A program made the translations under genes and the position numbers. A stretch of DNA of 64,000 nt from Cryobacterium breve (GTDB taxonomy: Bacteria > Actinomycetota > Actinomycetes > Actinomycetales > Microbacteriaceae). Where the stretch lies: the NCBI RefSeq assembly GCF_004402375.1, contig NZ_SOGJ01000011.1:186001-250000 (forward strand). Reading direction: 5' to 3'. The notes under the pieces were generated by a model. It had not been told where the DNA came from. It saw nothing but the letters and a program-made list of their open reading frames with translations, and searched no databases. Shown here piece after piece: positions 58,553 through 61,430 of this stretch; the stretch's first letter is position 1; each line of letters opens with the position of its first letter.

Positions 58553-58570
58553 CGTCAACTAGTATTGACG
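58553..58570. promoter_or_regulatory. Operator O1 and leaderless promoter of the small HTH gene
   Basis: CGTCAACTAGTATTGACG is an 18-bp inverted repeat (CGTCAAC-N4-ATTGACG, one mismatch). The -10 hexamer TAGTAT (58560-58565) lies inside it and ends 6 nt before the ATG at 58572. Binding would block the promoter, implying autorepression. Confidence 0.7.
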
Positions 58571-58571
58571 A

Positions 58572-58787
58572 ATGCAGGCGGAGCGATTGAAGACACTGGT
58601 CGGAGCGATGGACGGCAAGGGACCAGCTGAGGCACTGCAAATCATTGCCGAGCTCCATCGAGAGGTGGGGCGCAGTGAGGCAGGCCTCGTTCGCAGTGCC
58701 CGTCAGGCCGGGCTGTCTTGGGAAGCCATTGCCCAGTGCCTCGGCGTCACCAAGCAGGCTGTCCACAAAAAGTACGGCAAACGGTAG
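58572..58787 (+). CDS. Small helix-turn-helix regulator (71 aa)
   Basis: A 71-residue soluble protein. The C-terminus LSWEAIAQCLGVTKQAVHKKYGKR (from about residue 47) is a helix-turn-helix resembling sigma region 4; the N-terminal 45 residues form two helices, probably for dimerisation. Its promoter and the next gene carry the same palindrome, CGTCAAC-N4-GTTGACG, so it is the likely repressor of itself and the serine hydrolase. Start ATG is 6 nt after TAGTAT (leaderless). Stop at 58785-58787. Confidence 0.8.
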   Translation: MQAERLKTLVGAMDGKGPAEALQIIAELHREVGRSEAGLVRSARQAGLSWEAIAQCLGVTKQAVHKKYGKR

Positions 58788-58952
58788 CACGCAGTCAGAG
58801 AGCCACGCCAGCACCGAGGATCACACCGCCTCGTCGAAATGCATGGACGGTTCAGGACCCGACTGTTCAGCGATGACTTCTATGCGTTTTCGCCTCAGCC
58901 TGCTGCACCATCACTTCGCAGCGAGACTGCGGTGCCACCGAATCAACATTTG

Positions 58953-58970
58953 CGTCAACCAACGTTGACT
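58953..58970 (+). promoter_or_regulatory. Operator O2 overlapping the -35 box of the serine hydrolase gene
   Basis: CGTCAACCAACGTTGACT matches CGTCAAC-N4-GTTGACG with one end mismatch. Its right arm contains TTGACT (58965-58970), the presumed -35 hexamer. Confidence 0.7.
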
Positions 58971-58994
58971 TTTGGCGAATGGATCACCTATGGT
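58965..58994 (+). promoter_or_regulatory. Promoter of the serine hydrolase gene
   Basis: TTGACT (58965-58970) and TATGGT (58989-58994) spaced by 18 nt. Transcription would start near 59001, just before operator O3, leaving a leader of about 57 nt. Confidence 0.6.
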
Positions 58995-59008
58995 CAGACT
59001 ATAGGCAT

Positions 59009-59026
59009 CGTCAACAAAGGTTGACG
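59009..59026 (+). promoter_or_regulatory. Operator O3 downstream of the serine hydrolase promoter
   Basis: CGTCAACAAAGGTTGACG is a perfect 7-4-7 inverted repeat. It lies at about +9 to +26. Its centre is 56 nt from that of O2, so both could be bound at once around the promoter. Confidence 0.75.
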
Positions 59027-59057
59027 AACAACGAGAACGTGCGGAAAGAGAGCCTTC

Positions 59058-60044
59058 GTGACGATTGGGTGGAGTGGGGATGCTGAACTTGTTCGCGCTG
59101 TGGGCCGCGTCTTCCGTTCGACCGGAGCAGCAGCAGTGGCAGTGATCACCCCTCAGGGCGGATTGACCGCAACGGTGGGTGCGGACCACCATGCCACCTT
59201 CGAGATCGGCTCGATCTCGAAGGCACTCACGGGCATGTTGTATCGGGACGCGACCGAGCGCAGTCTCGTCTCGCAGACGACGGACCTTTGCGACTTGCTT
59301 TCGCTCGAGGGCCGTGGAGAGGTCGGCTCAGTGCGCCTGAGTTCCCTGGCCATTCACCGTTCCGGCCTTCCGGGCTTACCTCCCGGGATGCATCCACTTC
59401 GCCGCACCGTCGACTTCTGGTCCCGAGGGCACAACCCTTACGGTGATTCGCTCGCTGATCTCCTCGAACAGACTCGCAACGTGCGAGTTGGCTCCCCCCG
59501 ACCCAGGTACTCGAACCTCGGTTTTCAGTTGCTCGGGCACGCCGTGGCGCAAGCCGCCGGGACTACCTATGAACGACTCCTGCAGTCTGTCCTGGGCGAG
59601 GGATTCTCGACGCCCATTCGACCTGAGGACCTTGGGCCGATGGCTCTGACGGGGTTCAGCCGATTCGGACGCCCACTGCCCGCTTGGGTAGGTGAGGGGC
59701 TCGCGCCTGCAGGAGGTGTCCGCGCGACGATAGGCACGATGCGCGGCTTCCTCAGCTCGATCCTCGACGGATCAACTCGGGGTCTATCCGCGCTCGAGCC
59801 GGTCTCACAATTCTCGTCCAGGGTCGGTATCGGTGCAGGGTGGATCACCCTTGAGTTCCAGGGCCGCGCAATCACCTGGCACAACGGCAGTACCGGGGGG
59901 TTCAGCAGCTGGATCGGCCTCGACCGAGATGCGGGCGTCGGAGTTGTTGTGCTCGCGGCAGTCCATGGATCTGTCGACAGGCAGGGATTTCGCCTCCTAA
60001 CGGAGTTCGCCCGATCCCGGGGCCGAACAACCGCCACCGGCTGA
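59058..60044 (+). CDS. Class C beta-lactamase-family serine hydrolase
   Basis: 328 residues. SxxK motif is SISK (Ser52, Lys55), the second motif is YSN (RPRYSNLGF) and the third is HNGSTGG in place of KTG, as in DD-peptidase-like and esterase-like relatives rather than true AmpC. There is no signal peptide, so it should act in the cytosol, unlike secreted beta-lactamases. GTG at 59058 follows GGAAAGAGAG. Operators O2 and O3 place it under the small HTH regulator. The substrate is unknown; antibiotic resistance should not be assumed. Confidence 0.85.
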   Translation: MTIGWSGDAELVRAVGRVFRSTGAAAVAVITPQGGLTATVGADHHATFEIGSISKALTGMLYRDATERSLVSQTTDLCDLLSLEGRGEVGSVRLSSLAIHRSGLPGLPPGMHPLRRTVDFWSRGHNPYGDSLADLLEQTRNVRVGSPRPRYSNLGFQLLGHAVAQAAGTTYERLLQSVLGEGFSTPIRPEDLGPMALTGFSRFGRPLPAWVGEGLAPAGGVRATIGTMRGFLSSILDGSTRGLSALEPVSQFSSRVGIGAGWITLEFQGRAITWHNGSTGGFSSWIGLDRDAGVGVVVLAAVHGSVDRQGFRLLTEFARSRGRTTATG

Positions 60045-60413: not shown

Positions 60414-61430
60414 TCACTCTCGCAGGTAGAGCTCGAGCGCCGGCGTGCGCATCATCGCCAAGGCTCGCTTCTCAATCTGGCGAATTCTTTCTCGGGTCAC
60501 ACCTTCCCGGACGGCGATTTGATCGAGGGTGCGAGGTTGATCACCGTTCAACCCGAACCGGGACTCCAGGATCATGCGCTCACGTGTGGGCAGCGCATCA
60601 AGGTGAAAAGTGATGTCAGAGCGGCGCAGGGCAAGCGCCGCATATTCCTCTGGCTGGGGCAGGTCGTCGTCCATGATCAGCTCCGAGATGTCGGCTAAGC
60701 CCTCCCCGAGCGGGGTCTGATAAGAGATGGGCTCGACGTCCCAATCGAGAAATGCCCGCACGTCGGCCATCGGTGCACGGCAGGCCTCGGCAAGCTCCGC
60801 CAGGGTGGGCTCGCGGTGCAGGGAGCCGGTCAGGTCGCTGCGGATGCGTTTGATCTTGTTGAGCTTCTCCACTGCGTGCAACGGGATCCGGATGGTTCGA
60901 GCAGCACCAACCATGCCGCGGTGGATGGACTGCCGGATCCACCAGACTCCATAGGTAGAGAATTTGAACCCGGTTGTGTAGTCAAATTTTTCCACGGCAC
61001 GCAGCAGGCCGAGGTTACCGTCCTGGATGAGGTCCATGATCGGAATCCGGCGGCCGGAGTAGTGCTTGGCGACGCTGACCACCAGGCGCAAGTTGGCCTC
61101 AATAAACCGTGTTTTCGACCGGTCACCGTCCCGAACCAGCCAGATGAGGTCCCGGGTCAGAGCCGGATCGGCGACACCCCGGGCGAGACGAGCGGCCGCG
61201 ATCAGGCCCACCTCCATCCGCCGACCCAGGTTAATCTCATCCGCCGCGGTGAGAAGATCCACCCGTCCGATTTTTCGCAGGTAGAAACCGAACGTGTCCG
61301 TTGCGCCCCGAGCAACTCGTGCCAGCGAGGGACGAGGCACGGATACGGGTGGGGCTGCGGTCCAGGCAGGTTGAGCCGATTCGGAGTCAGACACCTCCAC
61401 GGCCACGGCGTCTTCGTCCGGCGCACTCAC
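60414..61430 (-). CDS. RNA polymerase sigma-70 family factor (group 2, SigB/HrdB-like)
   Basis: 338 residues with regions 1.2 to 4.2 of primary-type sigma factors: DLLTAADEINLGRRME, ANLRLVVSVAKHYSGRRIPIMDLIQ..., FKFSTYGVWWIRQSIHRG, region 3 EPTLAELAEACRAP, and region 4.2 VTRERIRQIEKRALAMMR. Region 1.1 is short and unlike the acidic domain of the principal sigma, so this is probably an alternative growth-phase or stress sigma. GTG at 61430 is the best start; ribosome site is weak. It stands alone on the minus strand. Confidence 0.92.
   Translation of the reverse strand: MSAPDEDAVAVEVSDSESAQPAWTAAPPVSVPRPSLARVARGATDTFGFYLRKIGRVDLLTAADEINLGRRMEVGLIAAARLARGVADPALTRDLIWLVRDGDRSKTRFIEANLRLVVSVAKHYSGRRIPIMDLIQDGNLGLLRAVEKFDYTTGFKFSTYGVWWIRQSIHRGMVGAARTIRIPLHAVEKLNKIKRIRSDLTGSLHREPTLAELAEACRAPMADVRAFLDWDVEPISYQTPLGEGLADISELIMDDDLPQPEEYAALALRRSDITFHLDALPTRERMILESRFGLNGDQPRTLDQIAVREGVTRERIRQIEKRALAMMRTPALELYLRE

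Follow-up and report, generated by a model that had tools for sequence, protein, structure and literature searches.

Three candidate operators with the consensus CGTCAAC-N4-GTTGACG were found in Cryobacterium breve at the promoters of two adjacent genes, one encoding a 71-residue helix-turn-helix (HTH) protein and the other a serine hydrolase of the PF00144 family. They lie in a stretch of 64,000 nucleotides, hereafter the window (assembly GCF_004402375.1, contig NZ_SOGJ01000011.1, forward strand, positions 186,001 to 250,000; coordinates below are counted from its first letter). The half-sites were already published as the operator of mycobacterial clpC2; what is new here is the putative control of the ClpC2 type in a variant form. 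We propose that the HTH protein represses both itself and the hydrolase through these sites, as ClpC2 represses itself, and assign a probability of about 0.82 to this reading. Homologous loci place the pair in a widespread class, where the HTH protein is one of a large family and its partner varies. The comparison suggests that in many actinobacteria genes of the detoxification type are guarded by small repressors of this family.

Candidate operators and promoters

The sites are palindromic, and no strand is assigned to them. Operator O1 (CGTCAACTAGTATTGACG, 58553..58570, one mismatch) ends 1 nt ahead of the start codon of the HTH gene. Operator O2 (CGTCAACCAACGTTGACT, 58953..58970, one mismatch) overlaps the putative -35 box of the hydrolase promoter, and O3 (CGTCAACAAAGGTTGACG, 59009..59026, perfect) follows 56 nt after O2, just downstream of the inferred transcription start. 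Together they cover 474 nt, with perfect left arms in all three and a single spacer length. The sequence-only reading had described three repeats with identical half-sites and a 4-nt spacer within 475 nt, one at the HTH promoter and two around the hydrolase promoter. Span, spacer and placement are borne out by the coordinates, whereas the exact 18-mer is present only at O3, O1 and O2 being one base off. That reading had also noticed nothing similar elsewhere in the window and, indeed, all other matches there need three mismatches. The total number of matches at up to three mismatches is at the chance level (six observed versus 4.94 expected; 36 of 100 shuffles reach six), and the signal is the clustering of three sites with at most one mismatch rather than the total count.

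A scan of the whole genome (3,521,602 bases) for GTCAAC-N4-GTTGAC at up to one mismatch gave four places, namely O1-O3 and C23:102009, which is inside the coding region of a serine hydroxymethyltransferase. The reversed control pattern occurs at two places. Judged from these scans, the regulon is small and real and, as far as the genome scan goes, self-contained, as had been claimed from the window alone.

The HTH gene (58572..58787, plus strand) has a putative -10 box TAGTAT within O1 (58560..58565, plus strand), and its ATG begins 6 nt past the end of this box. Thus its mRNA is likely to be leaderless. The putative -35 box of the hydrolase promoter, TTGACT (58965..58970, plus strand), is supplied by O2, and the putative -10 box TATGGT (58989..58994, plus strand) follows 18 nt later; it reads TATGGT or TACGGT in the alignment of five same-genus genomes. 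O3 is kept in all six aligned hydrolase promoters, O2 in the five same-genus genomes with the sixth, G502, lacking it (genomes and loci are denoted by G and L numbers), and the distance between the two is 56 nt (55 in G007). O1 is kept in eight aligned HTH promoters. The flanks diverge around the kept operators in both alignments.

Operators upstream of homologous HTH genes

The analysed homologues are the best 80 of 575 confirmed ones in species genomes, and the records nearest to the window's genome may be left out. They come from Cryobacterium, Arthrobacter and relatives, Microbacteriaceae, Streptomyces and others. Homologues with 86-99% identity occur in G012, G008 and G007, and with 73% identity in G029. 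An operator was considered upstream if it lay in the interval from -150 to +30 nt relative to the start of the HTH match. Such operators were observed in 78 of the 80 at up to two mismatches and in 77 at up to one; the exceptions are L118 and L134, which have none, and L148, which has two mismatches. Elsewhere in the same loci, 26 sites at up to two mismatches occur in 463 kb, some of them real operators, e.g. in L081.

Two or more operator copies are present in 73 loci, and in 70 of these a distance of 27-29 nt separates the last two. An in-frame start codon follows the downstream 16-mer by 2-4 nt in 58 of 75 cases. The downstream operator contains TAnnnT at the position of the candidate -10 box of O1 in 46 of the 73 tandem pairs. 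The distance between TTGAC of the upstream copy and TAnnnT of the downstream copy is 17 nt (32 pairs) or 18 nt (27 pairs) in 59 of the 73; ten other pairs have no TAnnnT there and four have it at other distances. Since these 59 pairs combine a -35 box and a -10 box, the operators seem to be built into the promoter in most homologues, as reported for clpC2.

The gene directly downstream of the HTH gene encodes an ABC exporter in 42 loci, a Clp_N protein in nine, a hydrolase in three, and none of these in 26. Partners were identified by tblastn with seeds taken from the same loci, and representatives were confirmed by Pfam as ABC_membrane plus ABC_tran, Clp_N and Beta-lactamase. Eight of the Clp_N proteins were found by tblastn and the ninth, in L146, by Pfam; it is the sole no-partner locus settled in this way, and the classes of the other 26 rest on tblastn. 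An additional distant ABC exporter match in L080 is not counted among the 42. Nineteen of the 26 partnerless loci, L082-L100, are from Arthrobacter and relatives; they have the operator, mostly in tandem, and no adjacent exporter, Clp_N or hydrolase gene, so that their targets, if any, are unlinked. The Clp_N partner at L014:476-1465 is fused to a Polyketide_cyc2/AHSA1-like domain and is perhaps another form of ligand-binding sponge. Genome G457, of the same genus, has four HTH paralogues (L180, L185, L193, L196), three of them beside operator-like sites. A screen of open-licence literature by title and the beginning of the abstract found no paper on a stand-alone HTH protein linked to this operator, nor any on its pairing with the hydrolase.

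Spacer length and half-sites

We collected 182 distinct HTH rows: 144 close members of the family, 28 distant relatives and ten ClpC2-type fusions. At least 11 of the 12 half-site bases were found in 125 of the 144 close members; setting aside the rows retrieved through the motif leaves 114 of 133. The corresponding number in control windows is 32 of 2,880, an upper bound since these windows were drawn from the same loci, real operators included. In the stretch searched, all 28 distant relatives fall short of 11 of the 12 bases; one of them, L038, has an exact operator ahead of its longer open reading frame (ORF), outside that stretch. The spacer is 4 nt in all 125 stand-alone rows with at least 11 matches and 5 nt in all ten fusions. 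Variant sites such as AGCAAC-N4-GTTGAC occur in L016, L017 and L148 and possibly form a second specificity class.

Residue 63 is threonine or serine instead of alanine in eight of the 127 rows with a usable site, and all eight have GTCAG in three of the four scored half-sites; one of the remaining 119 rows counts as GTCAG. Two same-genus pairs differ in both the residue and the half-site (L020/L252 and L255/L250). On the best tree there are three residue changes, four base changes and three independent pairs (one on well-supported branches). In the cluster A phage repressor, R45 and Q46, with which the recognition helix begins, contact guanines (PMC9283540), and K61 and Q62 of the window protein may be their equivalents.

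Searches independent of the HTH gene

The exact 18-mer was searched for in DNA of 396 genomes of the phylum, own included. It occurs in 15 of them, and the reversed control pattern in four. Eight of these 15 loci, own included, have a clear HTH gene of the family within 1.5 kb, and two (L037, L038) have a distant one only.

Starting from the hydrolase alone, 31 of 120 relatives match at E 1e-20, and 30 loci were fetched. An operator at up to one mismatch is present in eight of them: all seven loci (own included) with a hydrolase identity of 73% or more, and G037 (52%). Among 296 genomes of the class, 19 match at E 1e-60, the window's own and G029 also being among the 120. The operator is upstream of the hydrolase gene in 11 of the 19, own included: five have the HTH-hydrolase pair with tandem operators (L229-L233), and five have tandem operators at the hydrolase gene with no HTH gene in the locus (L234-L236, L240, L241). 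The two genes overlap by 4 nt in L230.

The HTH and hydrolase genes are about 167 kb apart in G502, each keeping its own operator, which speaks for the proposed repression. The hydrolase gene of G037 has tandem operators, and its HTH gene is on a separate contig of the draft. In G008 at most 52 nt separate the two genes, and the only operator stands ahead of the HTH gene, the gap itself having none. Within the genus, the genes called around the module also vary, G000 (the window's genome) and G012 differing from G008 and from G007. The sequence-only reading had staked its case on the motif being present at homologous pairs; the operator is there at all seven hydrolases with at least 73% identity and at 78 of the 80 HTH homologues. 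A third perfect operator of G502 (L167, G502:C1:1714401) overlaps a called 69-residue ORF away from the HTH and hydrolase genes and may mark a third member of the regulon.

The HTH protein and the hydrolase

Both ORFs are as the sequence-only reading described them. The AlphaFold2 model of the HTH protein has four helices (mean pLDDT 88.3). The candidate recognition helix, residues 61-69 (KQAVHKKYG), is encoded at 58752..58778 (plus strand), and Q62, A63 and H65 are invariant in an alignment of 54 rows. A profile built from 26 family members matches the RelI antitoxin (E 2.9e-10) and the N-terminal chain of ClpC2 (8ADA; E 0.011). A single-sequence search of PDB gave RelI at E 0.0008; the other rows below E 0.01 were designed proteins, discarded as composition matches. 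Foldseek with the model gave no hit that reached E 0.001, and the best VIA-align match was Fis (Z 6.0, rmsd 4.6 over 65 residues), a common helical arrangement. Neither 8ADA nor the RelI structure 9SDC is among the 50 rows shown by either program (library to April 2026). Thus the link to ClpC2 comes from profiles and not from structure. Pfam finds no Clp_N match in the protein. The PADLOC anti-phage profiles gave no match at E 0.01 to it or to the hydrolase. A distant relative of the QAAQQRF type is encoded by a 269-residue frame of the same genome (L032, G000:C35), which has neither an operator nor a Pfam match.

The hydrolase gene (59058..60044, plus strand, GTG start) encodes 328 residues. 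It belongs to PF00144, with a Pfam Beta-lactamase E-value of 1.7e-26 and a score of 93.6 bits versus the gathering cut-off of 27. The motifs SxxK (S52-I-S-K55, 59211..59222), YSN (Y151-S-N153, 59508..59516) and HNG (H275-N-G277, 59880..59888), all on the plus strand, are conserved in four aligned hydrolases, with S52 and K55 and all positions of the latter two motifs invariant; HNG, we assume, occupies the place of KTG. The enzyme is in these respects like other PF00144 hydrolases, which include class C beta-lactamases, AmpH-type peptidases and esterases. It differs in that inspection by eye revealed no N-terminal signal sequence, and in scoring under the curated cut-off of every listed NCBIfam model (25 of the 32 are listed), the best being 49.3 versus 266 bits. 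The NCBIfam class C model gives 34.7 bits versus the cut-off of 415, so it is not identified as a class C beta-lactamase. A sequence search of PDB gave nothing at E 1e-10 or better. The AlphaFold2 model, built from four sequences, is poor (mean pLDDT 53.6) and for that reason was not used for a fold search. The hydrolase is most likely cytosolic, and its likely target is a small molecule or peptide that it would destroy or modify. Its putative detoxifying role is suggested solely by the other partners of the repressor family, a sponge and an exporter.

The divergent gene upstream of the HTH gene encodes a 520-residue FAD-type oxidoreductase. Just downstream of the module there is a 338-residue ORF (60414-61430, minus strand), sigma-70-like by eye, with no near operator match beside it.

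The DNA-reading part of ClpC2

The published operator of clpC2 reads CGTCAAC-n5-GTTGACG, and tandem copies of it often cover the -35 and -10 boxes of a leaderless promoter (PMC10030653). ClpC2 (Rv2667) represses itself, is a sponge for cyclomarin, and is relieved of repression by cyclomarin A (PMC10030653; PDB 8ADA, 8AD9). DNA binding was assigned there to the C-terminal domain, given its conserved charged surface and the R185A/R189A mutant, which binds DNA more weakly and whose Mycobacterium smegmatis counterpart is 2.0-fold derepressed. The substitution R57A in the N-terminal part causes 4.6-fold derepression (PMC10030653). An HTH region in ClpC2 was already noted by Han et al. 2026 through RelI (PMC13284704).

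The N-terminal region of ClpC2 aligns with the HTH family of the window with hhalign probability 97.5 and E 5e-12 (42% identity over 36 columns). Ten fused HTH-Clp_N frames of 240-256 residues (L209-L212, L218-L223), taken from genomes of one family that is mycobacterial by resemblance, have tandem GTCAAC-N5-GTTGAC sites, and Pfam finds Clp_N in all ten. Similar frames of 246, 259 and 243 residues in G325, G165 and G241 are outside the ten fetched. The 8ADA chain ends at V72, aligned to V59 of the window protein, and in the ten fusions a recognition helix of the TKQAAQKRF type follows directly after that point. Thus, by this alignment, both solved fragments of ClpC2 (4-72 and 94-252) lack the recognition helix. 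R57 of ClpC2 aligns with R44 of the window protein, which is at least 90% conserved in the 54-row alignment. In the ClpC2 dimer R57 forms a salt bridge with D46; as the profile alignment offers no clear equivalent of D46, a shared interface is not claimed. Since stand-alone HTH proteins without Clp_N have the same half-sites, the operator of ClpC2 is probably read by its N-terminal HTH and not, as published, by the C-terminal domain, whose role may be to modulate.

Alternative explanations

Several observations weigh against the proposed repression. O1 is single, whereas a second copy is present in 73 of the 80 homologues. Among the 15 loci with the exact motif, five (L035, L036, L039, L045, L046) lack a nearby HTH gene of the family. 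The operator at up to one mismatch is absent from 22 of the 30 hydrolase loci in relatives and from eight of the 19 in the class (L228, L237-L239, L242-L244, L062), so that the hydrolase is not generally under this HTH family. Nineteen of the 144 close members have fewer than 11 of the 12 half-site bases, among them the GTCAG variants L255 and L271 and the AGCAAC-type variants L016, L017 and L148. The covariation between residue 63 and the half-site is concordant but only suggestive, the events being too few for significance once relatedness is counted. Finally, the C-terminal double mutant of ClpC2 also has lowered DNA binding (PMC10030653), and thus its HTH may not act alone.

We considered four other explanations. 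That the sites are a chance occurrence, or a by-product of promoter hexamers given that GTTGAC contains the -35 consensus, is hardly credible. The three perfect left arms, the single spacer length, the conservation amid diverged flanks and the one other near match in the genome all speak against it, and the homologue counts, the hydrolase-only loci and the promoter alignments contradict it. It is very unlikely that the two genes form a toxin-antitoxin pair. RelI is the best solved relative of the HTH protein by profile, but the partner here is a PF00144 enzyme and not a RelE-type toxin, it occurs without an adjacent HTH gene, and homologues of the HTH gene adjoin genes of ABC exporters, Clp_N proteins or neither. 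The authors of the RelI study themselves describe no inverted repeats and no evidence that RelI binds DNA (PMC13284704).

The sites might also be read by a different protein, with the HTH gene being merely one of its targets. The five hydrolase loci with operators and no HTH gene agree with this, and the absence of the gene there implies that their binder is encoded elsewhere. On the other hand, the operator accompanies this HTH family over many genera, the spacer length tracks the HTH subfamily, and the family profile finds in the window's genome just the 71-residue protein and the distant 269-residue frame, in which Pfam recognizes no domain, Clp_N included. We consider this improbable. Somewhat less so, although still unlikely, is that the HTH protein activates the hydrolase gene or acts both ways. 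O2, over and upstream of the -35 box, is in a possible activator position, and the HTH model resembles Fis, which can activate. Repression is favoured by O1 covering the -10 box of the HTH gene, by O3 being downstream of the inferred start, by the operators holding TTGAC and TAnnnT 17-18 nt apart in 59 of 73 tandem pairs, and by ClpC2, with the same half-sites, being a repressor (PMC10030653).

Possible mechanism and implications

If the HTH protein is the repressor, it would bind the palindromes as a dimer. A dimer at O1 would cover the -10 box and repress its own promoter, and dimers at O2, over the -35 box, and at O3, just after the start, would repress the hydrolase promoter. A signal would release the repressor, and hydrolase and repressor would then be made together. 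This would be the logic of ClpC2, with a cytosolic PF00144 hydrolase as the effector instead of a fused drug-binding Clp_N domain. A more ambitious reading is that the module is a drug-inducible resistance cassette of the ClpC2 class with an enzyme in place of the sponge, where a peptide-type natural product or disturbed Clp proteolysis releases the HTH protein and the hydrolase destroys the compound, that the family at large sequesters, exports or hydrolyses, and that the N-terminal HTH reads the operator of ClpC2. As a whole it is tentative, and we would rather not expect all of its parts to hold together.

If it is true, one family of actinobacterial repressors drives sequestration (Clp_N), export (ABC exporter) and hydrolysis (PF00144) via operators of leaderless promoters. 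Apart from that reading, the HTH together with CGTCAAC-N4/5-GTTGACG offers a search handle for regulons in which one repressor family is paired with a sponge, with an exporter or with a hydrolase, and such regulons are a likely entry to unrecognised natural-product responses in actinobacteria. The clpC2 operator comes to mark a class of small regulators that have no Clp_N domain, and through this class it can be tested directly which part of ClpC2 reads DNA. The likely reassignment of this function and the wide operator class are of the main general interest.

Comparison with known systems

The BlaI/BlaR1 system also has a dedicated repressor of an enzyme with the beta-lactamase fold and operators at both genes. 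However, it involves a different HTH family, a membrane sensor and a different operator.

RelI (Rv2664, PDB 9SDC) is likewise a small HTH protein, related by profile. It is paired with the RelS toxin, and no operator is reported for it (PMC13284704), whereas the next gene in the window is that of the hydrolase and not of an adjacent RelS/RelE-type toxin. The immunity repressor of cluster A mycobacteriophages (PDB 7R6R) has a similar HTH with a GVTRQAV turn (profile E 0.013), but it is monomeric, has another DNA-binding domain and binds an asymmetric site (PMC9283540).

The most similar system is ClpC2. The spacer is 5 nt in its operator and 4 nt in the window, and its HTH is fused to Clp_N, whereas the HTH of the window is stand-alone with a hydrolase partner; the module is thus not ClpC2 proper. 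What they share is the homologous HTH and the half-sites CGTCAAC and GTTGACG, present in the window at the HTH gene's own promoter (O1, one mismatch), which place the module in the ClpC2-type HTH/operator class. ClpC2 and the wider HTH family described here also have in common a leaderless promoter whose -35 and -10 boxes are covered by operators.
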